Below the pieces are notes generated by a model. The model did no database searches and had not been told where the DNA came from. It saw nothing but the letters and a program-made list of their open reading frames with translations. Positions 5,355-45,131 of a DNA stretch of 45,131 nt are shown piece by piece. Numbering within the stretch: the stretch's first letter is position 1; the number at the start of each line of letters is the position of its first letter. A program made the position numbers and the translations under genes. This DNA is from Ignavibacteriota bacterium (GTDB lineage Bacteria > Bacteroidota > Ignavibacteria > UBA10030). Location of the stretch: contig PLMK01000036.1 in assembly GCA_003142475.1 (NCBI GenBank), forward strand, positions 1 to 45,131, read 5' to 3'.

Positions 5355-6476
5355 GTGGTTCAGCGCGTAATGATCATTGCTGGTGAAGCATCGGGTGATT
5401 TGCATGGCTCCGGCGTTGTGCGGGAGTTGAAACGCTTATCGCCTACTGTTGATGTGTTTGGTGTCGGCGGCGATAAAATGAAGCGCGAAGGCATGGATCT
5501 TATCTATCACATCAACGAGCTTGGGTTTATGGGCTTTATAGAAGTGTTGCAACATCTTCCATTTATCAAGACGATGGAACACACTCTTGAGCAAATCGTC
5601 AAGTTCAAGAAACCGGATGTGCTGGTGCTGATTGATTATCCCGGATTCAATCTCCGGTTTGCACGCATCGCTAGACGTTATAATGTCAAAATCGTTTACT
5701 ATATAAGTCCGCAGGTTTGGGCTTGGCATAGATCGCGTGTGAAAAAGATTCACTCGCTTGTTGATAAGATGCTGGTCATTTTTCCGTTTGAAGTGGATTT
5801 CTATCATACGGAAGGAATCGATGCAGAGTTCGTCGGTCATCCTTTATTGGAAGTGTTGGAATCGAGACTTAACCGGAAGAATTTTTGCAAGCGGTTCTCA
5901 TTAGATGAGCAGAAACCAATTGTGGCATTGCTCCCGGGAAGTCGCAAGCAGGAGATCGATTATATATTTCCTGAGATGCTTTCCGCTGCACGGATTATTT
6001 CTATGCAGAACAATGCAGAAATTGTAGTTGGTATTGCACCAACTTTGGAAGAGGAATATTTCAAAACGCTCTACAATTTAAAAGGCGTTCATTTTATAAA
6101 AGGATTGACGTACGAAGTAATGGCAAATGCTGATTTTGCATTTGTCACTTCAGGCACGGCGACATTGGAAACAGCATGTTTTGGAACCCCGATGTTTGTG
6201 GTATACAAAACCTCATGGTTGACGTACTTGATAGGTCGCGTGCTCGTGCATGTCAAAAATATTGGGCTTGTCAATATTGTGGCGGGTAAGACTATTGCGC
6301 CGGAGTTTATTCAGAATAAAGCAGCTGCGAAGAAAATGGCAAAGTCAGCGGTGAGACTATTGAATGATGAAAAACGACTTACTGATATGAAAGCAGATCT
6401 ATCTAAAGTGAAGGTAATGCTCGGTACGGTTGGCGCATCGCAGCGAGTTGCAGAACGAATTATGAAGATGCCGTAA
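5355..6476 (+). CDS. lpxB: Lipid-A-disaccharide synthase
   Basis: Membrane-associated GT19 glycosyltransferase joining UDP-2,3-diacylglucosamine and lipid X (2,3-diacylglucosamine 1-phosphate) to form the lipid A disaccharide. It has 373 residues, a normal length. Visible landmarks are GEASGDLHGSG (10-20), ISPQVWAWH (117-125), GHPLLE (161-166), LLPGSRKQE (192-200) and SGTATLE (266-272), all typical of LpxB. The start is GTG, three bases after the methyltransferase gene. lpxK follows directly, so two steps of Kdo-lipid A synthesis are neighbours; this also implies an LPS-bearing outer membrane. Confidence 0.97.
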   Translation: MVQRVMIIAGEASGDLHGSGVVRELKRLSPTVDVFGVGGDKMKREGMDLIYHINELGFMGFIEVLQHLPFIKTMEHTLEQIVKFKKPDVLVLIDYPGFNLRFARIARRYNVKIVYYISPQVWAWHRSRVKKIHSLVDKMLVIFPFEVDFYHTEGIDAEFVGHPLLEVLESRLNRKNFCKRFSLDEQKPIVALLPGSRKQEIDYIFPEMLSAARIISMQNNAEIVVGIAPTLEEEYFKTLYNLKGVHFIKGLTYEVMANADFAFVTSGTATLETACFGTPMFVVYKTSWLTYLIGRVLVHVKNIGLVNIVAGKTIAPEFIQNKAAAKKMAKSAVRLLNDEKRLTDMKADLSKVKVMLGTVGASQRVAERIMKMP

Positions 6477-7523
6477 ATGAGACGTGCAAGACTTTTTCTA
6501 TTGCCGTTTTCTCTGTTTTATTGGTTCGGAGTTGTTGTTCGCAATTGGTTCTTTGATATAGGTGTTTTAAAAACAAAAAAAATAAGCATGCCTGTGATTT
6601 CTGTCGGTAATATTTCAGTGGGCGGAGTTGGCAAAACACCATTTGTGGAAATGCTGATCGAAAGATTAAAAATCGGTCATCACCTGGCAGTTGTTAGCCG
6701 TGGGTATAAGAGGAAAACAATAGGAACGATCATTGTCAACGATGGTCGTGGAAAATTATCTTCGGTTGAAAATTCTGGAGATGAGCCGATGCAGCTTGTG
6801 CACAAATATCCGGAGTTAATAGTTGTTGTCGATGAACAACGTGTGCGGGGAGCGCATAAAGCCATCGAGCTTGGTGCAACAATGATTCTGCTCGATGATG
6901 GATTCCAACACAGGTATTTACACCGGGATCTTAACATTGTGATTCTTACTGCGGAAGAAATTTTGAATGGAGATTTATTACTGCCGGTTGGAAATAGACG
7001 CGAGCCATTGACCTCGTTGAAGCGCGCGGATCTCATTGCAGTAACACGATGTGTGGATATAAAAGAATATGAACGTGCTTGCGCAATAGGTCGGGAGTGT
7101 CATTTGCTTCCAATTAAAACGCCAACTGTTGGATTGAAAACGAAACTGAAAACATTCAAACGTGTTTCATCCAATGAGATTGTGAAAGCTGATAATTTTA
7201 TAAATAAAAATGTGATTGCGTTCTCCGGAATCGGTAATCCGAAATCATTTGAAGAATTGATGATAAAAACGAACGTAAAAGTCTTGAAGCATATTGCTTT
7301 CTCAGATCACCATTGGTACAAGGATGAAGATATTAAGACAATTATTAATACAAGAAAAGAAACAAATGCTGATTTCATTATCACAACAGAAAAAGACACA
7401 GCGCGGCTTAAGGATCGGTTTGTAGAATTTCTGGAAACGGAACATGTAATAGTTGCTGAAATTCAGCAGGAAATTATCTCTGGAGAACAAAATTTAAACG
7501 AGTTATTAAAACGCGTAAATTAA
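6477..7523 (+). CDS. lpxK: Tetraacyldisaccharide 4'-kinase
   Basis: Inner-membrane kinase that phosphorylates the 4' position of the lipid A disaccharide made by LpxB. It has 348 residues with a hydrophobic N-terminal stretch (about 5-22) acting as membrane anchor. The P-loop is ISVGGVGKTPF around residues 46-56. LDDGFQHRYLHRDLNIV (about 138-154) and a C-terminal FSDHHWY plus IITTEKDTARL segment match the family. The ATG follows the lpxB stop with no spacer, so the two are translationally coupled. Confidence 0.96.
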   Translation: MRRARLFLLPFSLFYWFGVVVRNWFFDIGVLKTKKISMPVISVGNISVGGVGKTPFVEMLIERLKIGHHLAVVSRGYKRKTIGTIIVNDGRGKLSSVENSGDEPMQLVHKYPELIVVVDEQRVRGAHKAIELGATMILLDDGFQHRYLHRDLNIVILTAEEILNGDLLLPVGNRREPLTSLKRADLIAVTRCVDIKEYERACAIGRECHLLPIKTPTVGLKTKLKTFKRVSSNEIVKADNFINKNVIAFSGIGNPKSFEELMIKTNVKVLKHIAFSDHHWYKDEDIKTIINTRKETNADFIITTEKDTARLKDRFVEFLETEHVIVAEIQQEIISGEQNLNELLKRVN

Positions 7524-7640: not shown

Positions 7641-10409
7641 ATGGCAAAAGTACCAAAGTATGTCTATTTCTTCGGCAGTGGAAAAGCCGAAGGTAAAGCC
7701 GAGATGAAAAATCTTCTCGGCGGTAAAGGTGCAAACCTTGCCGAGATGGTTAATATCGGGTTGCCGGTTCCGCCGGGTTTCACTATCACGACCGAAGTAT
7801 GTACCGCATATTACCAGAATAAACAAAAGTATCCAAAGTCGCTGCAGAAAGAAGTTCTTACCGCGCTTGCGAAAGTTGAAAAGGCGATGGGTGCGAAACT
7901 TGGCGATGCCAAAAATCCGCTGCTTGTTTCTATTCGTTCCGGCGCGCGCGCGTCGATGCCCGGCATGATGGACACTATCCTCAACCTTGGTCTTAACGAT
8001 AAAACAGTTGCAGGCCTTATTGCCAAGACGAAGAACGAACGTTTCGTGTATGATTCATATCGACGTTTCGTGCAGATGTATGGAGACGTTGTGCTTGGAT
8101 TGAAACCGGTGAACAAGGACGACATCGATCCATTTGAAGAAATTATCGAAGCAAAGAAACATCAGAAAAATATAAAGCTCGATACCGAACTAACAGCCGA
8201 AGATTTAAAGGAACTTGTTGTGAAGTTTAAAGCGGCAATCAAAGAAAAAACCGGACACGACTTCCCCGAAGATCCGCTTGAACAAATGTGGGGTGCTATT
8301 GGTGCAGTGTTTGGTTCTTGGATGAACGACCGTGCAATTGCTTATCGCAAGATGTATGATATTCCAGAGTCATGGGGCACTGCAGTAAACGTGCAAACGA
8401 TGGTGTTCGGCAACATGGGTGAAGATTCCGGAACTGGTGTTGCGTTCACTCGCGATGCAGCTACCGGCGAAAATTATTTCTACGGTGAATATTTGATGAA
8501 CGCGCAGGGAGAAGATGTTGTTGCCGGTACGCGCACACCGTTGCCGATATTAAAACTCAAAGAACAGGATGCTAAACTGTACGAACAGTTAGACAAAATT
8601 CGCAGGACATTAGAAAAACATTATCATGATATGATGGATGTTGAGTTTACTATCCAGCAGGGCAAATTGTTCATGCTCCAATGCCGTGTTGGAAAGCGGA
8701 CTGCATTTGCTGCAATCAAGATAGCGGTAGATATGGTTGTTGAGAAACTTATTTCAGAAAAAGAAGCGCTGATGCGCATCGAGCCGGATCAATTAAATCA
8801 ATTACTTCGCCCGATTTTTGATCTAAAAGAAAAAGAAGCAGCGGTTAAATCCGGACGTTTGTTGGCGAAAGGTTTGAATGCAGGTCCAGGTGCCGCTACC
8901 GGACGCCTCGTGTTCAATGCTGTTGATGCAGAAGCGTGGAAGAATCGCGGCGAGAAAGTCATTCTCACGCGTATCGAAACTTCACCGGAAGACATCAAAG
9001 GCATGGATGCATCAGAAGGTATTCTTACTGCGCGCGGAGGTATGACCTCACATGCAGCACTTGTTGCTCGCCAAATGGGCAAGGTATGCGTTGCAGGCTG
9101 CGATGAGTTGAATATCGATTATGCTAAGCACACGATGGCTGTCAAAGGCAAAGTGTTGAAAGAAGGCGATTGGATTTCACTGGATGGCTCAACCGGTCAA
9201 GTGCTCGAAGGTAAAATTCAAACGAAGCCGTCAGAGGTATTGCAAGTACTTGTCGAAAAAACTCTCGATCCGAAAGATGCACCTGTATACCGAACTTTCG
9301 AAAAAGTAATGGTGTGGGCTGATAAATATCGAACACTGAATATTCGTACAAACGCCGATCAGCCGGATCAAGCTGCGAATGCAATCGCATTCGGAGCCGA
9401 AGGAATCGGCCTTTGCCGAACCGAACATATGTTCTTCGGTGAAGGAAAGATTGGACCGATGCGCGAGATGATTCTTGCCGATACAGTTGAACAGCGCAGG
9501 GTAGCACTCGCAAAACTGCTCCCATTACAGCGTGTAGACTTCGCCGGTATCTTTGAAGCGATGAACGGAAAACCGGTAACGATTCGCACAATTGATCCGC
9601 CATTGCATGAGTTTGTGCCGCACGAAGAAAAAGAACAGCGTGCACTCGCACAATCAATGGGCATCAGCTACGAGAAAGTAAAAGAGCGCGTCGAAGGTTT
9701 GCATGAGTTTAATCCGATGCTTGGGTTGCGTGGATGCAGGCTCGGTATTATCTTCCCGGAAATCACCGAGATGCAGGCACGTGCAATTTTTGAGGCCGCT
9801 GCTGATACACAGAAAAAAGGCATTGCTGTAGCACCGGAAGTTATGATTCCTCTCGTTGGCAATGTGAAAGAACTTCAGCATCAAGAAAAACTTGTTCGTG
9901 CAACTGCTGAAGCGGTTATGCAGGAAAAAGGAGTGAAGTTCAAATATATGGTTGGTACGATGATCGAAATTCCGCGAGGCGCTATTACAGCGGATGAGAT
10001 AGCAACAGTTGCTGAATTCTTCAGCTTTGGTACAAACGATCTGACGCAGACGACGCTTGGTGTAAGCCGAGATGATGCGGCAAAATTCCTTGTTCCTTAC
10101 GTTGCGAAAGAAATATACGCGAAGGACCCGTTTGAAGTGCTGGATCGCGGTGGTGTTGGCAAAGTTATGCAGATCGCCGTGGAAAAGGGCCGCGCAACAC
10201 GCCCCGGTATAAAACTCGGCATCTGTGGTGAACACGGTGGTGAACCATCAAGCATTGAGTTCTGTCATATTATCGGCTTGAACTATGTAAGTTGTTCGCC
10301 ATTCCGCGTTCCGATTGCTCGCTTGGCTGCCGCACGTGCAGCGCTGTTGAATCCAACAGCACCTGCGAAGAACGCCGGCAAAAAAGCAAAAACGTCGCGC
10401 AAGAAGTAA
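7641..10409 (+). CDS. ppdK: Pyruvate, phosphate dikinase
   Basis: Interconverts pyruvate + ATP + phosphate with PEP + AMP + pyrophosphate, in glycolytic or gluconeogenic direction. The 922-residue protein holds the N-terminal ATP-grasp part ([13 protein letters not shown] near 24-36), the swivelling phosphohistidine domain ([12 protein letters not shown], catalytic His at 471) and the C-terminal TIM barrel with [14 protein letters not shown] (catalytic Cys at 875). A Lys/Ala-rich tail of about 20 residues ends the protein. A good ribosome site, GAAAGGATAAC, precedes the ATG. It stands alone, 117 bases after lpxK, and is followed by a hairpin terminator. Confidence 0.98.
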
Positions 10410-10434
10410 ACTGACGTATAGTTCATTAAATCAT

Positions 10435-10464
10435 AGGAGGCGGAATATTTATTTACCGCCTCCT
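10435..10464 (+). terminator. Probable terminator after ppdK
   Basis: A perfect 9-base stem (AGGAGGCGG pairing with CCGCCTCCT) encloses a 12-base AT-rich loop. The downstream T-tract is weak, so termination may be partial. It separates ppdK from queA. Confidence 0.6.
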
Positions 10465-10496
10465 TCATCTTAAAAACTATAGAAGGGATATGAGCA

Positions 10497-11534
10497 ATGA
10501 AGCTCTCCGATTTCAAATATCCGCTTCCTCGTAACTTGATAGCGAAGCAACCGGCAAATCCACGCGACCACTCGAGGTTAATGGTAATGAACCGCGTTGA
10601 CGAAACTATCGATGAGCGAAAGTTCCATGAAATCGCAGATTTTTTTCAGAAGGGTGATTGTCTTGCAATAAATGAGACGCGTGTGTTTCAGGCACGGCTC
10701 TATGGGAAGAAAGAAAAAACGAATGCAAAAATTGAAGTCTTTCTGCTGCGCGAGCTGAACGCTGAAGAAAATATCTGGGACGTTATAGTCGATCCGGCGC
10801 GCAAAGTACGCATCGGTAATAAAATTTATTTTGATGACGGCAAACTCTGGTGCGAAGTAATCGATAATACAACTTCGCGCGGACGTACGGTACGCTTCAA
10901 TCACAAAGGTGATTTTTTCAAGATTATCGATCGCATTGGACTGACACCGTTGCCTCATTATATAAAGCGGGATGCAACTAACAAAGATAAAGACAGTTAT
11001 CAGACTGTCTATGCTCGCGTAGTAGGTGCTGTTGCAGCGCCGACTGCGGGATTACATTTTACGAAAGCGCTCCTGAAAAAACTGGAAGCGAAAGGTGTGA
11101 AGATTGCACCGGTTGTATTGCACATTGGTCTCGGAACATTTCGTACAGTTGAAGTAGAAGACCTTACGAAGCATAAAATGGATTCTGAATATTTCGAGAT
11201 AACCAACGAAACTGCAAATATTATTAATAAAACAATAGACTCAAAACACAATGTTTTTGTTGTCGGCACAAGTACTTGCCGTGCAGTGGAATCCAGCGTA
11301 ACAGTTGATGGCCACGTTAAGCCGGCTAAAGGATGGACAGACAAGTTCATTTTTCCGCCATACAGTTTTAAAGTTACGGATAGGTTAATCACGAATTTCC
11401 ACTTGCCTGAATCAACGTTGTTGATGCTGGCAGGCGCGTTTGCTGGACAGGAATTCTTGATGCGCGCATACAAAAAAGCCATAAAAGATGGATACCACTT
11501 TTACAGTTATGGCGATGCGATGTTGATTGTATAA
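10497..11534 (+). CDS. queA: S-adenosylmethionine:tRNA ribosyltransferase-isomerase
   Basis: Transfers and isomerises the ribosyl group of S-adenosylmethionine onto 7-aminomethyl-deazaguanine in tRNA, giving epoxyqueuosine. At 345 residues the length is normal. The N-terminus (FKYPLPRNLIAKQPANPRDHSRLMV) and the AAPTAGLHFT signature (about 180-189), plus LHIGLGTFRTVEVEDLTKHKMDSE, are diagnostic; the second is named here by its landmark HKMDSE. AGAAGGG precedes the ATG at a useful distance. No other queuosine gene is in the window. Confidence 0.97.
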   Translation: MKLSDFKYPLPRNLIAKQPANPRDHSRLMVMNRVDETIDERKFHEIADFFQKGDCLAINETRVFQARLYGKKEKTNAKIEVFLLRELNAEENIWDVIVDPARKVRIGNKIYFDDGKLWCEVIDNTTSRGRTVRFNHKGDFFKIIDRIGLTPLPHYIKRDATNKDKDSYQTVYARVVGAVAAPTAGLHFTKALLKKLEAKGVKIAPVVLHIGLGTFRTVEVEDLTKHKMDSEYFEITNETANIINKTIDSKHNVFVVGTSTCRAVESSVTVDGHVKPAKGWTDKFIFPPYSFKVTDRLITNFHLPESTLLMLAGAFAGQEFLMRAYKKAIKDGYHFYSYGDAMLIV

Positions 11535-11563
11535 TTTATTTTGTGGGTTGATTTTTTTAATAA

Positions 11564-11619
11564 GGGAGTTTTATTTCTAATGAAAGTGTGACCGGGAATG
11601 GAACTCCCTCCTTTTTTTT
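11564..11619 (+). terminator. Rho-independent terminator after queA
   Basis: GGGAGTT (11564-11570) pairs with AACTCCC (11602-11608), followed by a T-run to 11619. The loop is long (about 31 bases) and has weak internal pairing. Confidence 0.6.
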
Positions 11620-11652
11620 ATTGCATGAACTTTTTTGACGAATGTTGTAGAA

Positions 11653-12372
11653 ATGTCGAAATCAAGACCTAAAATATTTGCAATTATTCCCGCCGCGGGA
11701 TCTGGCACACGAATTGGTGGAGACATTAAAAAACAGTTTCTGCCGTTGAAGGGGAAACCGATTATCGTGCATACGCTTCAACAATTCGAACATTGTTCGG
11801 ATGTTGATGAAGTAGCGCTTGCTCTTCCGGAATCGGCGATGTCTGAAATGGAATTAATCGCTGAGCGATACCGGTTGCACAAAATCAGTAAAATGGTACT
11901 GGGCGGCGTGAAACGGCAAGATTCGGTTCGCAATGTGCTGGATCGGTTGACACTGAAAGAATCAGATATCGTTATTGTGCATGATGGTGTGAGACCGTTC
12001 ATTGAAACAAAACGTATTACGCATCTTTTAAAAGTCTGTAAAGAATATGATGCGGCGGTACTAGCAGTTCAGCCGAAAGATACGATTCGGCGTTCAACCG
12101 GAGGTGGTTTTTTTGATCAGACAATGGATCGTACAGCACTTTGGCTGATTCAAACACCGCAGGCGTTTCGAGCGAAATTATTGGTGAAAGCTTACGAAAA
12201 AGCGAAAAAGGACAAGTATTATTCAACTGATGAAGCGGCGCTTGTTGAGCGGTTAGGAGTAAAAATTCGGATCGTAGAGGGTAGTTATGATAATATTAAG
12301 ATCACAACTCCTGAAGATTTAGAATTGGGCTTGCTGATCTTTGAGCGTTGGCATATGAAAGGATGGATGTAA
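11653..12372 (+). CDS. ispD: 2-C-methyl-D-erythritol 4-phosphate cytidylyltransferase
   Basis: Makes CDP-methylerythritol in the non-mevalonate isoprenoid pathway. The nucleotide-binding start IIPAAGSGTRIGG with the following KKQF, then VHDGVRPF near 111, IQTPQAFR near 166 and the ITTPEDL end are all present in 240 residues. The frame is open to a TTG at 11635, but ATG at 11653 gives the usual short lead before the glycine-rich loop and is preferred; neither start has a clear Shine-Dalgarno sequence. No ispF is adjacent. Confidence 0.95.
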   Translation: MSKSRPKIFAIIPAAGSGTRIGGDIKKQFLPLKGKPIIVHTLQQFEHCSDVDEVALALPESAMSEMELIAERYRLHKISKMVLGGVKRQDSVRNVLDRLTLKESDIVIVHDGVRPFIETKRITHLLKVCKEYDAAVLAVQPKDTIRRSTGGGFFDQTMDRTALWLIQTPQAFRAKLLVKAYEKAKKDKYYSTDEAALVERLGVKIRIVEGSYDNIKITTPEDLELGLLIFERWHMKGWM

Positions 12373-12440
12373 GTTGCTTCTTGGTGCCAAAATGAATATC
12401 TTACATATGTTCTGTTGAAGCTCGAATAAAGGAATGACGT

Positions 12441-13124
12441 ATGATAAATATGGTTATTGTAGTGCTTTTGAGTTATATCGTGGGATCGATTCCGACAAGT
12501 GTCATGCTTTCCAAGTGGAGGCATGGTTTTGATATTCGCAGCAAAGGAAGCGGCAATGCGGGCGGCACAAATGTATTCCGAGTACTCGGCTGGAAATCAG
12601 GTGTGTTCGTTATTATTAGCGATGCGTTGAAAGGTGTCATTGCGACGACGGTTATTGCGCGTTTGTTCTGGGATCCGACATTGCCGTTTTACAATCACAC
12701 GCCCTTTGATGATTTCACCATTATCCAAATGATTTGTGGCGCAGCAGCAGTAATAGGGCATGTCTGGACGATGTTTGCCGGATTCAAGGGCGGAAAGGGT
12801 ATTGCGACGGGTGCTGGAATGCTGATCGGCATCGCACCGACGGAATTTGCTGTTTCTATAGGCGTGTTCCTCATTTTTTTATATGCATTCAGATATGTCT
12901 CGCTCGGTTCCATTATGGCGGCGGCATCTTTTCCGTTATCGCTCATCATTCGATACAATATTCTTTCGGATGAAATTCACAGCTATAAAACATTGGTGTT
13001 CTTCAGTACCGGTATTGCACTCTTCCTTATTTATTCACATCGCGCCAATATCAAGCGATTGATTGAGGGAACTGAACGGAAAATTACATCCTCGAAAAGT
13101 AAAACTGACTCGGTCGAATCCTAA
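12441..13124 (+). CDS. plsY: Glycerol-3-phosphate acyltransferase PlsY
   Basis: Membrane enzyme that transfers the acyl group from acyl-phosphate to glycerol-3-phosphate, the first step of phospholipid synthesis. It has 227 residues and several membrane segments. The three family motifs are visible: SIPTS near 14-18, the GSGNAGGTNVFR loop near 37-48, and GHVWTMFAGFKGGKGIATGAG near 107-127, landmark FKGGKG. A hydrophilic Lys/Ser tail ends the protein. AAAGGA precedes the ATG. gpsA, which supplies its substrate, follows. Confidence 0.96.
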   Translation: MINMVIVVLLSYIVGSIPTSVMLSKWRHGFDIRSKGSGNAGGTNVFRVLGWKSGVFVIISDALKGVIATTVIARLFWDPTLPFYNHTPFDDFTIIQMICGAAAVIGHVWTMFAGFKGGKGIATGAGMLIGIAPTEFAVSIGVFLIFLYAFRYVSLGSIMAAASFPLSLIIRYNILSDEIHSYKTLVFFSTGIALFLIYSHRANIKRLIEGTERKITSSKSKTDSVES

Positions 13125-13181
13125 ACTACGTTCAATTCTGAGGAAGTCACTGAATTTCTAATCTAATGTGCCGTCAATGAT

Positions 13182-14186
13182 ATGAAGATCACTGTTCTTG
13201 GTGCAGGCGGTTGGGGAACTACGATTGCCCTCGTTTTGTACGACAACCATCACGACGTCAATCTTTGGACGTTTGACAGTGATCAAGCAGACCTCATTCG
13301 CAAGAAGCATGAAAACCCTCAGTTTCTTCCTGGTGTAGTTCTGCCATCTGAAATAAAAATTACCACCGATATCGAAGCTTCATGCCGCGAACGCGATATG
13401 ATTGTCGCAGCAGTGCCATCTCAATTTCTTCGTTCCGTTCTCCAACGCATTGCTCATCTCGATTTACAACATACGATCATATGTAATGTTGCCAAGGGCA
13501 TCGAGAATGGTTCCTTGATGACCATGTCTGAAGTTTTATTGGATGTGCTTATGCATGAACGCCGTGAGAATATTGCGATTCTCTCTGGACCAAGTCATGC
13601 GGAAGAAGTCAGTTTGAAAATACCGACTATGGTCGTGTCGGCTTCTTTTAAATTGAAAACAGCAAAGATTGTACAGGAAGCGTTTGTAAATGATTACTTC
13701 CGCGTCTATGTGAACGAAGACATTCGCGGTGTTGAATTGGGCGGCGCTATAAAAAATGTTATTGCAATTGGAGCCGGCTTGAGCGATGGCGCTGGTTTTG
13801 GAGATAATACAAAGGCGGCAATTATGACGCGTGGAATCTATGAGATTACTCGACTTGGCGCTAAAATGGGAGCTCAACCAATTACATTCGCAGGTCTTTC
13901 CGGCATGGGAGATTTAATTGTCACTTGTATGAGCCACCACAGTCGCAATCGCTTTGTCGGTGAGGAAATTGGGAAGGGTAGAAATGTCGCTGAAGTGCTG
14001 AGCGATATGACGATGGTTGCGGAAGGTGTCGCCACGGCGAAGTCTGTTCATCAGCTTGCACAGAAGCATCACGTCGATATGCCGATGGCGGAAGAAGTCT
14101 ATAAAGTACTTTTTGAAGATAAAAATCCACGCCAGGCGACATTGGACTTAATGCTTCGCGATACACGCGGCGAAGGTGCACATTAA
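13182..14186 (+). CDS. gpsA: Glycerol-3-phosphate dehydrogenase (NAD(P)+)
   Basis: Reduces dihydroxyacetone phosphate to glycerol-3-phosphate for phospholipid synthesis. Of normal length (334 residues), it begins with the Rossmann motif ITVLGAGGWGTTIA. Further landmarks are NVAKGIENG (about 108-116), LSGPSHAEEV (about 133-142), the catalytic Lys in GAIKNVIAIGAG (about 189-200) and LSGMGDLIVTC (about 246-256). It lies 57 bases behind plsY in the same direction, so substrate and user enzymes are likely co-regulated. Confidence 0.97.
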   Translation: MKITVLGAGGWGTTIALVLYDNHHDVNLWTFDSDQADLIRKKHENPQFLPGVVLPSEIKITTDIEASCRERDMIVAAVPSQFLRSVLQRIAHLDLQHTIICNVAKGIENGSLMTMSEVLLDVLMHERRENIAILSGPSHAEEVSLKIPTMVVSASFKLKTAKIVQEAFVNDYFRVYVNEDIRGVELGGAIKNVIAIGAGLSDGAGFGDNTKAAIMTRGIYEITRLGAKMGAQPITFAGLSGMGDLIVTCMSHHSRNRFVGEEIGKGRNVAEVLSDMTMVAEGVATAKSVHQLAQKHHVDMPMAEEVYKVLFEDKNPRQATLDLMLRDTRGEGAH

Positions 14187-39198: not shown

Positions 39199-39807
39199 AT
39201 GTCTGACGAACAAAGGAATTGCGAGCGTATGGCATCCAACGACACTGAATTAATTATGCAAACCCAGCGTGGAAATATGGACGCATTCGAACAGCTTGTG
39301 CAGCGATATGATAAACGAGTTTTGACCATTGCGGCAGGATATGTAAGCTGCTCCGACGATGCAAAGGATATCTATCAAGAGGTATTCCTCCGAGTCTATA
39401 AAGGTTTGCCAAAATTCCAATATAAGAGTGAGTTCTCAACTTGGCTCTTTCGGATTACGACGAATGTTTGCTTAAGCCATCGGATGCGCGGGCGAAGACA
39501 TTCCCATACATCACTCGATCAGAATGTAAACGATGAAGACGGTCAGTCGCATGCGTTAAAAGACACGCTGTCCGACAATACGACAACTGATCAACAAACG
39601 CACGATGCAGAGATTTCGATAAGAGTGGGGCAAGCATTGAAGACTCTCTCACCGCGCCAGAGGATGGTTTTTTCGCTTAAACATTACGACGGTTACAAAT
39701 TGAAAGAGATTGCCGAAATGATGAAATGCAGCGACGGAACTGTAAAGAAGTATTTATTTGAAGCGACGGCACGTTTGAGAAAGCAATTGAAGGATTTTGC
39801 GAATTGA
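39199..39807 (+). CDS. ECF-type RNA polymerase sigma factor
   Basis: A 202-residue sigma70-family protein of the two-domain (ECF) type. Region 2 spans about 18-95, with DAFEQLVQRYDKRVLTIA, DAKDIYQEVFLRVYKGL and STWLFRITTNVCLSHRM. A variable acidic linker (about 96-135) precedes region 4, with LSPRQRMVFSLKHYDGYKLKEIAEMM and GTVKKYLFEATARLRKQL (landmarks LSPRQR and GTVKKYL). The anti-sigma gene begins 21 bases downstream. ATG at 39199 is used, although Met at residue 11 is possible. Targets probably include this operon. Confidence 0.93.
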   Translation: MSDEQRNCERMASNDTELIMQTQRGNMDAFEQLVQRYDKRVLTIAAGYVSCSDDAKDIYQEVFLRVYKGLPKFQYKSEFSTWLFRITTNVCLSHRMRGRRHSHTSLDQNVNDEDGQSHALKDTLSDNTTTDQQTHDAEISIRVGQALKTLSPRQRMVFSLKHYDGYKLKEIAEMMKCSDGTVKKYLFEATARLRKQLKDFAN

Positions 39808-39828: not shown

Positions 39829-40806
39829 ATGAAACATAAACAGTTTGAGGAATGGCTCCAGCTTTCCTTATATAATGAGTTGAGTGAACAAGAACAAACA
39901 GTTCTCGATAATCATCTTACAACATGCGAACGCTGTCGAGTTGAGTTAAATGAATTGAAAGAAATGCATGCAACGTTGGCACATCATCGACCGATAGCTA
40001 TACAGGAGTCGCTATTGCAGGATGCGCGAAGAAACCTGCGTTTGCGAATTCAAACCGATGCTGAGCAAAAATCATTGTGGACGAAATTAAAGGGTATACT
40101 CGATGGATTTCTCACTCCACCGCTTCAAGTAGCGTTGGGCGGAGTTGCAACACTCGTAATGGGAATCCTTGTTGGGTATTTCGTTTTTAAAACGCCATCC
40201 GAAAAAAACTTACCACTGCGACAGGCGGCATTTGCTTCGTCTGCGATGGAAGCGGGAGAATCTCAGATAACGAATATTCGCTTTATAGATCGTAACACAC
40301 AAAATGGAGATGTGGAGTTCACATTTGAAACGATCACGCCGGTGCGTATTCGCGGCAATGTCAATGATGAGAATGTGCAGAAGGTATTGGCTCGGGCACT
40401 TGTAAGCGATCAGAACGCGGGCGTCCGGCTTCGTGCTGTAAATATGATCGGCACGCAGACTGAACAAAAGCAAGCCGGTGCTCCAGTACTTGATACTGAA
40501 GTAAAAGCCGCCTTGATCACTGCACTGCTGCATGATCGAAATCTTGGTGTGCGAAAGGAAGCTCTCAATGTGCTTAAGAATTATTTGCCGGATCCTATCA
40601 TCGTACGTGCATTCCTTAGCGTTTTAGCGAATGAAACAAATACAGGTTTGAAGATTACAGTTATTAATTCGTTAGACTTATCTAAATATGAAAACCAGCC
40701 GGTGAACCGTGAGATTCTTGATATGTTTAAGAACAAAGCTCAATCGGACGACAACAATTATATCAGAATCAGAGCAAAGTTAGCTTTGCAGGAGGTACAA
40801 CAATGA
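39829..40806 (+). CDS. Zinc-finger anti-sigma factor with HEAT-like C-terminus
   Basis: A 325-residue single-pass membrane protein. The N-terminal ZAS motif is His29-x3-Cys33-x2-Cys36 (NHLTTCERC), the form that binds ECF sigma factors. A membrane segment lies at 98-120. The outer part has beta-rich sequence (about 140-180) and then three helical repeat-like segments from about 185 to the end (for example LVSDQNAGVRLRAVNMIG and LLHDRNLGVRKEALNVL). These are HEAT-like and may sense a partner. The stop overlaps the start of the DUF4097 gene (ATGA). Confidence 0.9.
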   Translation: MKHKQFEEWLQLSLYNELSEQEQTVLDNHLTTCERCRVELNELKEMHATLAHHRPIAIQESLLQDARRNLRLRIQTDAEQKSLWTKLKGILDGFLTPPLQVALGGVATLVMGILVGYFVFKTPSEKNLPLRQAAFASSAMEAGESQITNIRFIDRNTQNGDVEFTFETITPVRIRGNVNDENVQKVLARALVSDQNAGVRLRAVNMIGTQTEQKQAGAPVLDTEVKAALITALLHDRNLGVRKEALNVLKNYLPDPIIVRAFLSVLANETNTGLKITVINSLDLSKYENQPVNREILDMFKNKAQSDDNNYIRIRAKLALQEVQQ

Positions 40807-41951
40807 AAATTCTTACTCGAATACTCATTGCCACTATCGCGGCTTCATTCGCGATAACACTTGCCTTGGCAAGCGAAGAAGGCACGAGATCGAAATCCTT
40901 TAACGTTAGCAAAGGAGGTACTGTCGAAATATCAACGAGCGTCGGAGATATTCGAATTTCAACATGGGAAAAGAATGAAGTATACGTGAATGTAGAAGGT
41001 CTTGATGATGAAGACATCAGTCAAGTGAAGATGTCGCAAAGTGGAAATGTTGTACACATATCATATCGAACACGATGGGGCGATGGATCCGGGCATGCCC
41101 GCTTCAATGTAAATGTGCCATCGCAATTCAACCTCGATCTCAATACATCAGGAGGGGATTTAGAAGTAAAGGGCGGACTTACTGGAAAGATAGATGGATC
41201 GACTTCGGGTGGTGATATCAAACTTGGCAACGTGTTTAGCGGTCCTATAAATGTAACGACATCTGGTGGAGACATTACTACTGATAAGCTTGAAGGAGAA
41301 GGGCATCTTAAAACCTCCGGTGGTGATATACATGTTGGAAGCGTCAATGGCTCACTTTATGTCAACACATCGGGCGGCAATATTCGGGTTGAGACTGTGT
41401 CAAAAACTCTTGACGCAAAAACAGCCGGCGGCGACATCGTTATTGGTGATGTTGGCGGCGAAGCGCGCGTTTCTACTTCTGGCGGCGATGTAAATGTCGG
41501 TAAAGTCTCAGGTAAAGCAACACTCAGTACGGCGGGTGGCGATATCGAGCTCAGGGGTGCAAGTGGTAAGGTAAGCGCGAGAACATCTGGCGGCGATGTA
41601 AAATTGCAGAACATCACCGGTTCGATTGATGCAAAGACAGCAGGTGGTGAGGTTGAAGCAGAACTTATTCCTGGTGGCAAAGGTGGAAGCAGGCTTGCGT
41701 CCGCTGGCGGAGATGTGCGGCTCTATATTGATGAAAATTCTAAGGCAACGATTGAAGCTACTATACGTCTCGATGGATGGGGCTGGAAAAAAAGCCGTTA
41801 TGTTGTGAAATCTGAATTTCCCAAAGAAACATATGAAACAGATGAAGAAGCCGGTGAAATCCGTGCGGTCTATAAATTAAACGGCGGCGGCGAGTTGGTT
41901 GAACTGAGCACATCAAATTCAAATATCGAAATTCACAAGCTGCGTCATTAA
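40803..41951 (+). CDS. Secreted DUF4097-family beta-repeat protein
   Basis: A 382-residue exported protein (signal peptide MKILTRILIATIAASFAITLALA) built of about eleven TSGGDI/TAGGDV-type repeats from about 118 to 300, each predicted as a short beta-strand turn stacking into a right- or left-handed helix. The C-terminal part is a different beta fold ending in LVELSTSNSNIEIHKLRH. It is coupled to the anti-sigma gene and may be the output or ligand of this sigma system. Copies of its last ~20 codons recur at 42903-42962 and 44506-44574. The function of DUF4097 is not established. Confidence 0.92.
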   Translation: MKILTRILIATIAASFAITLALASEEGTRSKSFNVSKGGTVEISTSVGDIRISTWEKNEVYVNVEGLDDEDISQVKMSQSGNVVHISYRTRWGDGSGHARFNVNVPSQFNLDLNTSGGDLEVKGGLTGKIDGSTSGGDIKLGNVFSGPINVTTSGGDITTDKLEGEGHLKTSGGDIHVGSVNGSLYVNTSGGNIRVETVSKTLDAKTAGGDIVIGDVGGEARVSTSGGDVNVGKVSGKATLSTAGGDIELRGASGKVSARTSGGDVKLQNITGSIDAKTAGGEVEAELIPGGKGGSRLASAGGDVRLYIDENSKATIEATIRLDGWGWKKSRYVVKSEFPKETYETDEEAGEIRAVYKLNGGGELVELSTSNSNIEIHKLRH

Positions 41952-42018
41952 AAATGTTAGGACACATTTGATGATAGCATAAATCGAAAGTAAAGTAAAT
42001 TGAAGGGAAAAGGAGAAA

Positions 42019-42855
42019 GTGAATCATAAATTTAATGTTCTCGTACAGTATTTACTTATACTTATTTTGTGTGATGGCATTAATAATGTAGTACATGGTC
42101 AAGATAGTAAACTGGACACGATACCGCCTAAGATTATCGAACTTTCTCAAGGTTGCAAATTGGTTTTAGACGCAAAGATAGACTTAACCGATACTGTTTC
42201 AATTGAGATTGTAGATGGAATACGTAACATCTTGCCACGGATACAAAAGTTGGTACCTGCGGATAGTGCAACGATCAACTTAGTTATAAGTAGCAAATAT
42301 ATCTTACCTGTATGGGGTGTGGGTGGGAGGACAACTAGTGTCTCTACTGACCAACATAGGGTAGAGACGATAGAGTTATATTACGATCCAAAACATCCGA
42401 ACTTTAGGGTAGAGTTTATTCTGCGTTCTTTGGTTCACGAGTTTCACCATGTATGCCGTATCCGTATGCTTCAATTTCAGTTGACGTTACTTGAATGTAT
42501 GATTAATGAAGGGCTTGCCGACCATTTTATGGTTGAAGTCCTCAATTGCGAGCAAACCCCATGGAGTAGTGCGCTCACAGAAGAACAAATCAAGCAAAAC
42601 ATGATTCGGGTAAAACCATTATTGCGTATAAAGCATGAATCGTGGACAACGGAATTTAACAAGAAGTATTTCAATCCATGGATGTTTGGCAGGACAGGAG
42701 ATGATCCGATTCCAGGATGGACTGGATATTCAATTGGATGGAGGATAGTTGAAAACTATCTAAGAGCTCATCCTGAAGCTAGAGCATCATCTTTAGTCTT
42801 TTCACCTGCTGAGGTAATTGTTAGTTCAACACCTGAACTAATAGTTTCAAAGTAG
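42019..42855 (+). CDS. Secreted DUF2268-like putative zinc protease
   Basis: A 278-residue protein starting with GTG behind GGAGAAA, with a weakly hydrophobic signal-like N-terminus (about 8-27). HEFHH at 140-144 is a HExxH zinc site and ILECMINEGLADHF-type sequence places Glu164 as a likely third ligand (visible as LLECMINEGLADHF). The later WTGYSIGWRIVENYLRAHPEA agrees with DUF2268 predicted proteases. It lies between two copies of the DUF4097 gene end and is absent from the usual sigma/anti-sigma/DUF4097 set, so it looks like an inserted accessory gene. Confidence 0.8.
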   Translation: MNHKFNVLVQYLLILILCDGINNVVHGQDSKLDTIPPKIIELSQGCKLVLDAKIDLTDTVSIEIVDGIRNILPRIQKLVPADSATINLVISSKYILPVWGVGGRTTSVSTDQHRVETIELYYDPKHPNFRVEFILRSLVHEFHHVCRIRMLQFQLTLLECMINEGLADHFMVEVLNCEQTPWSSALTEEQIKQNMIRVKPLLRIKHESWTTEFNKKYFNPWMFGRTGDDPIPGWTGYSIGWRIVENYLRAHPEARASSLVFSPAEVIVSSTPELIVSK

Positions 42856-42902
42856 GTGTCATTGACCATGATGGCATATATCGATTTGAAGCTTGCTATA
42901 TA

Positions 42903-42962
42903 GATGATATTGAACTCAGTACTTCAAATTCGAATATCGAGATTTATAAATTATGTCGCTGA
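42903..42962 (+). pseudogene. Remnant of a DUF4097 gene 3' end (copy B)
   Basis: In frame it reads DDIELSTSNSNIEIYKLCR and stops, matching LVELSTSNSNIEIHKLRH of the intact gene. ELSTSNSNIEI is identical in protein, whereas several third codon bases differ. The frame stays open upstream to about 42840 (GIYRFEACYIDD...), a possible eroded part of the same domain. No start codon or domain remains. It lies 60 bases before the serine hydrolase start. Confidence 0.75.
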
Positions 42963-43022
42963 TACTTGTTTGTGGCATTGCGTTGTTATAATGTTTCCAA
43001 TCAAAATAAAAAAGGAAATTAT

Positions 43023-44501
43023 ATGAGGCAAGGCGCCATAATTCTACTCCATGCAATTCTTTTTATCATCGCAATACATACTCCTGTTTTTGCTCAAAGC
43101 TCACTCGATTCATTGCTGCGAACATTGCCGGAAACTTGCAAGTTGCTGATGCAGCAGCGCGGATGGCCGAGTCTTTCAATAGCCATTGTGCTTGATCAAA
43201 AAATAATTTATTCACAGGCATTCGGATATGCAGACGTCGACAAAAAGATACCGGCGACGACAAATACGATCTATCGGGTTGCTTCAATGACAAAGCTGTT
43301 TAACGCGACGATGCTCATGCAGCTTGCTGAACGAGGGAAAGTGAATTTAAATGATCCCCTGATCAAATATATTCCTGCATATAAACCGAAATATTTACCA
43401 AACACCGGTCCAACGACTTTGCGCCAGCTCGCGACGCATACATCAGGATTGCATGTAGATGCAGCGCAGGGTTTCTGGCATTACTTCTCAAATTTCGAAT
43501 GGGTCGTTTCAAAAGGAAAGGAAAAGATCGTCTGGGGTGTTATGAAAAACGATCTGCTCTCAACATTGGATAAAGTTGAGATAGAGTACACACCCAATAT
43601 GTATCCTCACTATTCGAATTTTGGTTTTCAACTGCTCGGCATTGCTCTCGAAAATGCAGCACATGAACCTTTTGAGAAATATATCAAATCCAACATACTC
43701 GATCCGCTTGATATGAGGAATTCAGATTTCAGTCTCAATGATGAACAGCAGAATCGTTTTGCAGTGGGATATACGTATCTTGAGCCGGATTTTCAACGTT
43801 ATCGTGCTCCGGATTGGGATTTATCAATTCTCAAATATTCAGGCGGTTTGTACTCGACACCGGAAGATATTGCTCGTTTTATTTCTTTTCAGTTTCGAGA
43901 TCAATCCAACAATGATCAAAAAATCCTGAGCGGCGATGGATTGAGATTTATGCACACTCCGCAAACAATGCGCAGTCCAGAATCGCACGATACCTATGGC
44001 ATAGGGTGGGCAGTGTACGAATATGAAGGTCATCAGGTCATGGGCCATGGCGGCGGACATTGGGGCTTTGGATCAAAAGTTGAGATTTTACCAGATTTGA
44101 AATTGGGTGTTGTTGCCATGACGAACTGCAATTATCCTCAAGGATATCTAGGTCCGGACAAGGATTTGACAAGGATCATCATTGAAAAGTTTATTCCAAT
44201 TTTGGAGGCGAAGAAAACTGAACCGGCGTTTAATCCCCGAAACGTAGACCTTCAAAAATATTCTGGTCGATATACCGTTCCCGGAGATTATGCTCATGCA
44301 GATGTACAGGTCAGAGATGATACGCTGTGTTTTTCCTTGGTAGAGAAACCTCAATTTAATGCAGCCATCCTGCCGGTAGGGTTGCATCGGTTCTGTTTTG
44401 CGGTCGATCCGGAAAAAAATCCCATGTTTCGATTTAGTACAGATGATTCTGGTAAGGTTGTTAACCTTGAATTTTTGGAATTCAGATTCAAGAAAAAGTA
44501 A
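43023..44501 (+). CDS. Secreted class C beta-lactamase-like serine hydrolase
   Basis: A 492-residue exported serine hydrolase (signal peptide to about residue 22, ending VFAQ). The active-site triad motifs are SxxK (Ser88-Met-Thr-Lys91 in RVASMTKLFN), YxN (Tyr197 in HYSNFGFQL) and HxG (His342 in MGHGGGHWGFG), typical of the PF00144 esterase/peptidase/penicillin-binding family. A C-terminal beta domain of about 100 residues follows. ATG at 43023 with AAGGAAA is preferred to TTG at 42966. Whether it has any beta-lactamase activity cannot be judged. Confidence 0.9.
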   Translation: MRQGAIILLHAILFIIAIHTPVFAQSSLDSLLRTLPETCKLLMQQRGWPSLSIAIVLDQKIIYSQAFGYADVDKKIPATTNTIYRVASMTKLFNATMLMQLAERGKVNLNDPLIKYIPAYKPKYLPNTGPTTLRQLATHTSGLHVDAAQGFWHYFSNFEWVVSKGKEKIVWGVMKNDLLSTLDKVEIEYTPNMYPHYSNFGFQLLGIALENAAHEPFEKYIKSNILDPLDMRNSDFSLNDEQQNRFAVGYTYLEPDFQRYRAPDWDLSILKYSGGLYSTPEDIARFISFQFRDQSNNDQKILSGDGLRFMHTPQTMRSPESHDTYGIGWAVYEYEGHQVMGHGGGHWGFGSKVEILPDLKLGVVAMTNCNYPQGYLGPDKDLTRIIIEKFIPILEAKKTEPAFNPRNVDLQKYSGRYTVPGDYAHADVQVRDDTLCFSLVEKPQFNAAILPVGLHRFCFAVDPEKNPMFRFSTDDSGKVVNLEFLEFRFKKK

Positions 44502-44505
44502 GAAC

Positions 44506-44574
44506 AGCGGCGGTGAGTTGGTAGAACTGAGTACATCGAATTCGAATATCGAGATTCATAAGCTGCGGCATTAG
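44506..44574 (+). pseudogene. Remnant of a DUF4097 gene 3' end (copy C)
   Basis: Reads SGGELVELSTSNSNIEIHKLRH and then TAG. Against 41883-41951 it differs at 10 of 69 bases; eight changes are synonymous, one is Gly to Ser and one is stop to stop. Similarity continues about 12 bases past the stop (AAATGTTAGGAC versus AAATATTAGCAC). It begins four bases after the serine hydrolase stop. No start codon is present, so it is not a gene. Confidence 0.85.
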
Positions 44575-44622
44575 AAATATTAGCACTAACTTGCATTCAT
44601 ACTAATCAGAAATAATCAAAAA

Positions 44623-45131
44623 ATGGAAAATATAGTATTAATCTTATTCACGACTTTTCAAATTTATCTGTTTAGTTCCTTGCCATTAAAATCGCAGCAA
44701 CTCGTCCAAGTGAATAAAGAAAATAAATTAAAATGTTCCTGTCTCCAGTCAAAAATCCAATTCGATGATTCGTCGATCGAGAAAATTATTTTACATCCGG
44801 AAGATGTGCTTGCCAATCCAAATTCATTTTGGGAAAGTGATTCAGCATACCGGCTTGTTAAACTTTGGCATCAAAGGATTTCGTTTCCTATCCCGATGGA
44901 ACACTGGAAAGGATGGTTGCAAGGTTTCAAGAATCAATCTATCGGAGAAAGGGTGAAGAATACCCAGCTTGTTGCAGCAAAATCTATGATAAAAAAAGAA
45001 GAAGAATTTAACGAAAAAGCTATTCCTTACATTTGTTCATTTCTACCTAAAAACTGTCCCGCTATAAGCACTACAATCTATTTTACAACTGCTATTATGG
45101 CTTCCGGTTTTCAATCGGGAAACAGTATTGT
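44623..45131 (+). CDS. Exported protein of unknown function, 3' truncated by window end
   Basis: An ATG at 44623 opens a frame that stays open to the end of the window, giving 169 residues. The first 25 or so are hydrophobic (MENIVLILFTTFQIYLFSS), suggesting a signal peptide. The rest is mixed alpha/beta without a recognised motif; FLPKNCPAISTTIYFTTA near 144-161 recalls the pre-HExxH strand of DUF2268/DUF5700-like proteases, but no zinc motif is visible before the cut. No Shine-Dalgarno sequence is clear. It follows directly after copy C. Confidence 0.7.
   Translation, partial: MENIVLILFTTFQIYLFSSLPLKSQQLVQVNKENKLKCSCLQSKIQFDDSSIEKIILHPEDVLANPNSFWESDSAYRLVKLWHQRISFPIPMEHWKGWLQGFKNQSIGERVKNTQLVAAKSMIKKEEEFNEKAIPYICSFLPKNCPAISTTIYFTTAIMASGFQSGNSI

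Follow-up and report, generated by a model that had tools for sequence, protein, structure and literature searches.

Orphan copies of a DUF4097 gene end behind accessory enzyme genes in an Ignavibacteriota genus, and their probable origin in repeated one-sided recombination

The window analysed here, a stretch of 45,131 nucleotides of contig PLMK01000036.1 from an Ignavibacteriota bacterium (assembly GCA_003142475.1), carries near its 3' end an operon in which two regulatory genes are followed by a DUF4097 gene (gene A) and by several enzyme genes (Table 1). A DUF2268 protease gene, whose product has a signal-like N-terminal stretch (by eye), lies between the 3' end of gene A itself (copy A) and a second copy of that end (B), and a PF00144 serine hydrolase gene (SerHyd) lies between B and a third copy (C). 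Gene A has orthologs in all six genomes of the genus (G000 to G005, G000 being the window's own genome), and sigma/anti-sigma relatives are found upstream of it in 22 of 27 loci from other genera and families.

Table 1. Features of the locus (C7 is the window's contig, in a numbering that runs past the window end).
Feature	Position	Strand	Basis or remark
ECF sigma factor, first gene of the host operon	39199..39807	+	Pfam Sigma70_r2/r4_2
Anti-sigma-type protein, zf-HC2 and HEAT repeats	39829..40806	+	profile match
DUF4097 gene A, 382 aa, recombination anchor in the proposal	40803..41951	+	PF13349, 4.6e-20
Copy A (3' end of gene A)	41883..41951	+	sequence comparison
GTTAGGACAC, cassette-start-like box, immediately 3' of gene A	41956..41965	+	sequence reading and shuffle test
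Cargo 1, DUF2268 Zn-protease	42019..42855	+	PF10026, 6.6e-26
Orphan 3' end B	about 42903..42962	+	sequence comparison; homology from ~42910
Cargo 2, beta-lactamase-family serine hydrolase (SerHyd)	43023..44501	+	PF00144, 2.1e-68
Orphan 3' end C	44506..44574	+	starts 4 nt past the cargo 2 stop codon
Cargo 3, DUF5700 Zn-peptidase	44623..45131, on past the window end to ~C7:45585	+	beyond copy C
DUF4097 paralog 2, 37% identical to gene A	C7:45712-46791		3' of the DUF5700 gene

An earlier note, made from the window alone, had described three DUF4097 3' ends on the same strand, each with a stop codon and with one gene between each pair, and our comparison confirms it, the 38-nt core of the copies being found at 41901, 42912 and 44524 by a repeat search. 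Copies A and C are similar beyond chance (E = 3e-20) and, in agreement with the earlier count, differ at 10 of 69 bases, 8 of these differences being synonymous third-position changes; what remains is a Gly/Ser difference in the first codon of the copies and a TAA/TAG difference between the stops. In the 21 codons compared there are 8 differences, and every one is at position 3 (chance 1.5e-4). With changes sitting almost only at third codon positions, these two copies diverged while coding, as had been proposed. This part of the claim stands for C and not for the other orphan ends (hereafter tails), which are further decayed, with first- and second-position changes in B, in tails o1 and o2 of G003 and in tails o2 and o3 of G004. 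Copy B is shorter and more diverged (62% identity with A across 63 nt, with homology from GAACT onwards only), and a deletion relative to G003, which took an attC-like palindrome together with the 5' part of the tail, explains why its homology does not start before about 42910. Slippage and a simple recent tandem duplication, which had already been doubted, are both disfavoured by the coding pattern of the differences in C and by the different cargo. Among the tails, C is closest to gene A of its own genome (87%), with two orphans, of G003 and G004, at 86%. When B is compared with 12 other tails, the full-length gene of G001 comes first (71%), followed by that of G003 (70%). The gene A end of G002, whose identities to the other A ends are 67-70%, was excluded from the A-A means and counts.

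In a set of 329 ORF ends from its genome (21 stretches, 445 kb), the DUF4097 gene is the only one whose 3' end recurs outside an ORF in its own stretch. A second gene with a recurring 3' end, an integron integrase gene on another contig, shows the same feature, which is thus not peculiar to DUF4097. The tail was also considered as a dispersed repeat, and no other strong genome match was listed for a 106-nt query, in a search that listed neither B nor C and is therefore not sensitive. A 19-nt degenerate core matched without mismatch in G000 at the three tails and at one isolated site (C60:3318), which is intergenic and has no tail flanks. Outside the genus, no orphan tail was found in 23 gene A loci of other genera and families (L048-L051 and L053-L071, from whole genomes, with 0.7 to 13.8 kb behind gene A covered, under 2.2 kb in four of them); the downstream matches in L050 and L071 are the ends of a second DUF4097 gene. 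A limited literature search found no title or abstract describing this locus.

In the six genomes of the genus, gene A is conserved and the genes added behind it vary, and relatives show empty as well as intermediate states. The site is empty in G002 and G005, the order in G001 is A-SerHyd-DUF5700 with a partly deleted tail behind SerHyd (by eye), and in both G000 and G003 a DUF2268 gene is added between A and SerHyd. Seven orphan ends are present in three genomes (G000, G003 and G004), with partly species-specific cargo. A clean orphan end follows the added genes in 7 of the 15 cargo units; the other eight comprise one with a decayed tail, one with a piece of gene A and no tail, and six with nothing recognisable. 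The joint behind SerHyd that carries copy C in the window is very similar in G003 and G004 and decayed in G001. Relatives of SerHyd occur at the same site in G001, G003 and G004 and elsewhere in G009 and G060, and the idea that SerHyd travels with tails everywhere was rejected because no tail was found close to it in the latter two (the G009 contig ends inside the SerHyd gene). It might be suspected that the arrangement is an assembly artefact, as the named relatives are metagenome bins and the G005 contigs break between gene A and the paralog. Nevertheless, the arrangement recurs with different content in independent assemblies, among them a 732-kb contig of G004 and the record PMDB01000035.1, which speaks against this, and an empty site in two species makes an assembly accident unlikely, so that we regard this explanation as scarcely credible.

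The age of the cargo can be compared with that of the host genes. Between G000 and G003, divergence at 4-fold sites (G002 excluded from the pairs) is 0.25-0.34 for cargo and 0.50-0.64 for host genes (SerHyd differs at 25% of these sites, host genes at 50-64%), a contrast that has to be read with the caveat that silent-site constraint may differ between the two classes. The added genes resemble each other too closely across species to be explained by vertical descent; the cargo is younger than the host split and was acquired from other lineages. In a tree of the four SerHyd genes of the genus plus those of G009 and G060, the host clade G001+G003 is rejected (AU p 0.017). The host genes, in contrast, unite G001 and G003, with support of 96/97 and 83/85, and for them G000+G003 is rejected (p 6.5e-43 and 5.4e-65); the G001 sequence of PPDK is partial. 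The SerHyd grouping of G000 with G003 is itself weak (57/14), and G000+G004 is not rejected for this gene (p 0.12). The tail-SerHyd-tail homology between G000 and G003 has both edges inside tails (2911-4553 of L041, 88%), its left edge being partly due to the G000 deletion (change point +13, interval 12-107), and no single sharp change point was found to separate gene A from the cargo, either for A-DUF2268 (G000/G003) or for A-SerHyd (G001/G004).

In G004, a 66-nt piece of gene A is kept just upstream of a DUF5916 gene, and with 84.8% identity to gene A of G001 and 68.2% to that of G004 itself it is, to judge from these values, a clearly foreign part of gene A. The same piece is also a point in favour of another possibility, which we consider quite unlikely, that the locus is a decayed tandem DUF4097 array, in which every cargo gene originally sat behind an entire gene A and the body of that copy has since been lost. 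This would also fit gene A being directly followed by a DUF5916 relative in 7 of the 27 loci of other genera and families, tail o1 of G003 reaching about 8 codons further 5' than the other copies, and the 8 cargo units without a clean tail, which are compatible with loss. However, at E <= 1e-10 the genomes of the genus show no second full- or half-length gene A, the sole further match being the paralog with its roughly 40% identity, it is unlikely that bodies would be lost in most cases so as to spare the same last 20 to 30 codons, and the cargo is younger than the host split. The decay of an older array of paralogs, one of two origins suggested by the earlier note, is accordingly not favoured, although G004 has one longer relic. 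As for the tails being DNA kept as a regulatory or recombination element, their 12-codon core is 84% identical among the orphans; this reading is nevertheless very improbable, since no unusual single-strand fold appeared in the five tails, out of 13, that were folded (z -0.64 to +0.72), the three window copies have no terminator-like site, decayed copies are present in G001, G000 and G003, and C has the identity pattern of DNA that was coding until recently.

Our preferred reading, with a probability of roughly 0.6, is that the orphan ends are scars left by one-sided recombination that took place repeatedly with DNA of related species. The incoming DNA would consist of the 3' part of a foreign gene A and the gene downstream of it; the foreign 3' part would pair with the resident gene A as a homologous anchor, while the far end would fuse with the resident chromosome close to where gene A stops, in many cases at or beside the GC-rich AACGGCGGCGG (several joints do lie there). 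Gene A would thereby stay whole with the new gene adjoining it, and the resident's old last ~20 codons would be left on the 3' side, followed by the older gene, so that repeated events would yield the order A - newest gene - old tail - older gene - older tail. The tails might later serve as short homologies for further shuffling, or decay. Each tail would then be a displaced end from another lineage, with DNA uptake as the proposed route and illegitimate joining as the proposed event at the far end. The copies, the empty and intermediate sites, the young cargo and the foreign piece in G004 belong to the observed part of this account.

An origin in repeated recombination with DNA of related strains had been suggested before, and it gains from the same arrangement with partly other genes in G003 and G004, from the empty site in G002 and G005, and from A and C differing as orthologs of different species do. 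The support comes mainly from the cargo genes, the tails (63 bases) being too short to settle descent. The expectation that B and C would match full-length genes elsewhere is borne out for B, whose nearest gene (in G001) is directly followed by the same serine hydrolase, and fails for C, which is nearest to gene A of its own genome; no full-length gene A followed by a DUF5700 gene occurs among the sampled genomes, and no donor strain was found. Several observations weigh against the one-sided mechanism: all the left-over pieces come from the final 50 codons of gene A, for which an extra reason is needed, a clean tail is lacking behind more than half of the cargo units, and the clean third-position pattern is confined to C, the tail closest to its own gene A. 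Additionally, tail o1 of G004 is 98% identical to the end of gene A over 59 nt, which requires either a very close donor or later gene conversion.

A further explanation, unlikely but deserving some weight, is that the end of gene A is a target of an integron integrase (non-attI, attG-like), with the cargo genes being cassettes inserted at G^TT a few bases past the stop codon and the orphan tails standing in the place of attC, as in published delta-attI cassettes. Integrons have R boxes and are cut at G^TT. An integron integrase exceeds the curated cut-off in four of the six genomes and in none of 14 controls (all 14 giving sub-threshold matches), and real attC arrays exist in G000 and G004. 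The DUF2268 unit of G003 starts with TGTTAGGGCAC and ends with GTGCCCTAACA (1 of 200 shuffles as good), GTTAGGGCAC, the G003 counterpart of GTTAGGACAC, is complementary to the end of that unit, and the ~130-nt palindrome after it folds like four resident attC sites (z -2.0/-2.3; resident sites -1.2 to -2.4). Matching ends are also seen in the 443-aa unit of G004 (GATGTTAGCA / TGCTAACATC, 0 of 200 shuffles as good) and, by eye, in the 488-aa unit (ATGTTAACGGC / GCCGCTAACAT), the box differing from unit to unit and yet matching its own end each time. That IntI1 recombines attI-ORF-delta-attI cassettes is reported in PMC12901181.

On the other side, start and end boxes are complementary by the shuffle test in 2 of 15 units, and 13 of 15 show no cassette-like ends, in a test where some end stretches were only 12-32 nt and where the 488-aa unit falls into the 13, its end box overlapping the stop codon and so lying outside the stretch tested. 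For the GTTAGGACAC box, no complementary end is left in the window (68 of 200 shuffles as good). The motif common to four integrase upstream regions, GTCTAATCATAGTTA, taken as attI, is unlike the tail, and so the tail was rejected as a resident attI, as it was as an attC-like fold (none unusual in the five tails folded). At a setting that finds the resident sites, an attC scan returned none in the six regions between gene A and the DUF4097 paralog, and a relaxed scan matched in G003 only, at the palindrome and at a weaker site beside it; this attC-like sequence, considered as a repeat family, had just one further match in a search of 61 genomes, a weak one in G001. Tried as an attC, the sequence behind the 488-aa gene does not fold (z +1.1); the tails are not of constant length, and a piece of gene A without a tail occurs in G004. 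The integrase above the cut-off in G000 lies only on contig C49 and none is beside this locus. A broader version, in which the 3' end of an ordinary operon gene would be a preferred landing site for integron-type cassettes, so that a surface operon under sigma-factor control would become, at a distance from the integron, an expression platform for foreign secreted enzymes, with gene-end copies replacing attC and spreading with the cargo between species, seems to us rather improbable.

The host genus belongs to little-studied environmental bacteria, in which one operon repeatedly gains enzyme genes behind the same gene. If one-sided recombination is the cause, the short gene-end copies may record the order, and partly the foreign source, of acquisitions at one locus, and such scars would reveal in uncultured bacteria a process known mostly from laboratory transformation. 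The locus also suggests a route that places accessory secreted enzymes behind a sigma-factor operon with no integrase at the site and, if such scars are common, scanning for orphan gene ends would locate hotspots of acquisition that have neither integrase nor transposase.

Known systems resemble the locus in different respects. PMC5361080 describes sequential displacement with orphan immunity arrays at T6SS effector loci of Vibrio and strings of orphan 3' regions at Rhs loci, where effector 3' ends are displaced by modules anchored in a conserved upstream region, with homology-facilitated illegitimate recombination as the authors' tentative cause. Under the reading favoured here, the locus shares with these arrays the conserved upstream anchor, the foreign module added downstream with the newest first, the old 3' end pushed back together with its old neighbour, and the kind of recombination proposed; it differs in that the anchor is an ordinary surface/stress-type protein gene, whole and with an unchanged C-terminus, the cargo consists of single enzymes without immunity partners, and the remnant is mostly the last 20 to 30 codons. 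With homology-facilitated illegitimate recombination in natural transformation, as outlined in PMC3240628, it would share one homologous end, one illegitimate end and an insert of ~1 kb, whereas here the process would be visible from its outcomes and the 3-10 bp microhomology joint is a feature of the precedent. Finally, integron and delta-attI cassettes, as presented in PMC12901181, also have one gene per unit, the same orientation and insertion beside a fixed point, and the complementary end boxes (two units by test, one by eye) and the integrase elsewhere in the genome are further likenesses; unlike integrons, the locus has no integrase, most of its units have no attC, and its repeat is a gene end unlike the resident attI motif.

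Downstream of the DUF4097 gene that closes a sigma-factor operon (gene A), orphan copies of the gene's own 3' end (tails) recur between added genes (cargo units), and we consider it fairly likely (a probability of about 0.6) that these tails are scars of repeated one-sided recombination with DNA from related species. In genome G000 the order is A, DUF2268 protease, tail B, PF00144 serine hydrolase (SerHyd), tail C, DUF5700 peptidase and a second DUF4097 gene (DUF4097-2, 37% identical to gene A). The three gene ends with genes between them, as described in the earlier note, are confirmed.

Features of the gene A locus and related gene ends (window, C7:1-45131 of G000, genome size 3.58 Mb; L045 and L101, extracted loci)
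Feature	Position	Remarks
Operon of ECF sigma factor, anti-sigma-type protein and DUF4097 gene A	window 39199-41951	
Gene A 3' end (copy A)	window 41883-41951	last 69 bases
Orphan tail B	window 42903-42962	shorter and more diverged
Orphan tail C	window 44506-44574	recurrence of the last 69 bases of gene A
Tail-less 66-base piece of foreign gene A	L045 (G004) 8279-8344	reverse strand; directly upstream of DUF5916
Integron integrase gene and diverged copy of its 3' end	L101 (G000:C49) 5606-6565 and 6867-6935	

Gene A is found in all six genomes of the genus (the relatives being metagenome-assembled Ignavibacteriae/Bacteroidetes, such as PLMS01000093.1, G001; JAFGLB010000091.1, G002; PMDB01000035.1, G003; RPQN01000053.1, G005), and the site exists in empty and intermediate states. 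It is empty in G002 and G005, with 44 and 61 bases from A to DUF4097-2 (the G005 contig stops inside the latter). G001 reads A-SerHyd-DUF5700-DUF4097-2, with a partly deleted tail 3' of SerHyd (read by eye), G003 reads A-DUF2268-tail-SerHyd-tail-esterase-DUF5700-DUF4097-2, and G004 reads A-SerHyd-tail-PF00144-tail-peptidase C69-(piece of A)-DUF5916-tail-DUF5020-PF00144-DUF4097-2. Altogether, three of the six genomes carry seven clean tails; 7 of the 15 cargo units have one behind them, and six have nothing recognisable. In other genera and families, 23 gene A loci from whole genomes had no orphan tail (0.7 to 13.8 kb behind gene A covered). Outside the genus, a DUF5916 relative lies directly 3' of gene A in 7 of 27 loci; the piece of A-DUF5916 order in G004 is the same as this A-DUF5916 order.

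The cargo is younger than the split of its hosts. Between G000 and G003, differences at 4-fold sites are 0.25 for SerHyd, 0.27 for DUF5700 and 0.34 for DUF2268, versus 0.51 for PPDK (a host gene used for comparison), 0.57 for the anti-sigma gene, 0.64 for gene A and 0.50 for DUF4097-2 (Fisher p from 7.9e-14 to 0.026 across twelve comparisons). Host-gene trees place G001 with G003 (support 96/97 for flanking genes, 83/85 for PPDK) and strongly reject G000+G003; in this sister pair SerHyd (0.37) exceeds PPDK (0.23, p 0.0012) and is close to gene A (0.34, p 0.59). SerHyd itself rejects G001+G003 (AU p 0.017), its own best grouping being weak (57/14) and G000+G004 not being rejected (p 0.12). It also has relatives outside the gene A locus, in another genus (G009, 91% protein identity over 358 residues) and another family (G060, 76%), and no tail was found near either. 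The 66-base piece in G004 is 84.8% identical to gene A of G001 versus 68.2% to that of G004 itself.

Copies A and C of G000 are mismatched at 10 of 69 bases. Eight mismatches lie within the 21 compared codons, each at position 3; the remaining pair consists of a Gly/Ser change directly ahead of these codons and TAA/TAG. The identity of the two copies (87% over 63 nt) lies inside the range of gene A ends among five species (76-87%, mean 81%; G002, at 67-70%, left out). The other orphans also changed at positions 1 and 2 (A against B: 7 at position 1, 4 at position 2, 13 at position 3), as expected once coding stopped. The earlier note's expectation that B and C would be closest to full-length genes elsewhere held for B, nearest to gene A of G001 (71%; then G003's, 70%), which adjoins SerHyd, but not for C, whose closest match is A in the same genome (87%), followed by orphans of G003 and G004 (86%); descent cannot be read from the tails alone. 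Because clean tails mark only 7 of 15 units and C is nearest its own A, the proposal of repeated recombination with related strains is partly supported: the cargo genes and the one foreign piece speak for it, but the tails themselves give less.

SerHyd borders the full-length gene A in G001 in the way it borders orphan B in G000 (homology starts at 2911 of L041 and 4321 of L042; change point +24 within the tail, interval 22-30), and therefore DUF2268, next to A, probably came after SerHyd. The SerHyd stop-tail joint is very alike in G000, G003 and G004, with a decayed form in G001, so it probably arose once, judging from this likeness. The gene after that tail varies: G000 and G001 have DUF5700 there, G003 an esterase and G004 a PF00144 gene. 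From the probably late DUF2268 and the shared joint, it seems that units are added directly behind A and that older ones shift away; the G003 esterase would be an exception.

Among 329 ORF ends in G000 (21 stretches, 445 kb), gene A is the sole gene with a non-ORF copy of its own end within its stretch, and in a set of 68 loci (651 ORF ends, partly overlapping, relatives contributing many) nothing more turned up than an integron integrase gene and one ORF overlapping attC repeats. The integrase gene of G000 has its last codons copied about 300 bases downstream (82.8% identity over 99 bases, 15 of 17 differences at third codon positions); this second case shows that scars of this type are not limited to DUF4097. 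Elsewhere in G000, an intergenic 19-base site (C60:3318-3336, L052), lying between two unrelated genes and matching the tail core without mismatch, may be chance or a relic, and two adjacent minus-strand ORFs (L145, G000:C41:40001-60000, at 9874-12384 and 12636-13508; 837 and 291 codons including stop) have a 69-base 3' end in common (98.6% identical).

Part of the cargo may have reached the lineage in the form of integron cassettes, given its integron-like ends, a palindrome and the resident integrases. The start box is complementary to the unit's own end in the DUF2268 unit of G003 (11/11 bases; 1/200 shuffles as good) and in a 443-aa gene of G004 (10/10; 0/200); the shuffle test gave no such result for the other 13 of 15 units (at least 32/200 shuffles as good; several end stretches short); a 488-aa gene of G004 shows 10/11 by eye, outside the stretch used in the shuffle test. 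The palindrome, about 130 bases long and 3' of DUF2268 in G003, has folding scores (z -2.0 and -2.3) on a par with those of four resident attC sites (z -1.2 to -2.4), against -0.3 for a single control stretch taken from the SerHyd coding sequence. At normal setting, an attC scan that detects resident sites found none in the six A-to-DUF4097-2 regions, and a relaxed scan found only this palindrome and a weaker 78-base match beside it. Integrases above the curated cut-off occur in 4/6 genomes of the genus versus 0/14 controls, and attC sites of about 155 bases occur in L101 and L103. L112 (G004:C8:58000-72000) is apparently a cassette array: attC-like repeats separate its genes, a PF00144 hydrolase among them, and the sole trace of an integrase close by is a fragment. 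The tails may themselves be integrase sites, but this reading finds no support: the motif GTCTAATCATAGTTA, common to four integrase upstream regions (L101, L103, L105, L106; G000, G004, G001) and the probable attI of the chromosomal integrons, does not resemble the tail, which was rejected as resident attI.

Under one-sided recombination, incoming DNA would be taken up and anchored in gene A by homologous recombination, and the other joint, mostly illegitimate and close to the end of the resident gene, would displace that end as a tail. The left-over pieces fall in the last 50 codons of gene A, mostly starting around AACGGCGGCGG, a confinement that the model does not by itself predict; loss of longer repeats by recombination may lie behind their shortness, and the GC-rich stretch AACGGCGGCGG may favour joining. 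This type of recombination is known from transformation (PMC3240628), and the same model has been proposed for T6SS immunity arrays (PMC5361080). The locus would be a further form of such gene-acquisition arrays.
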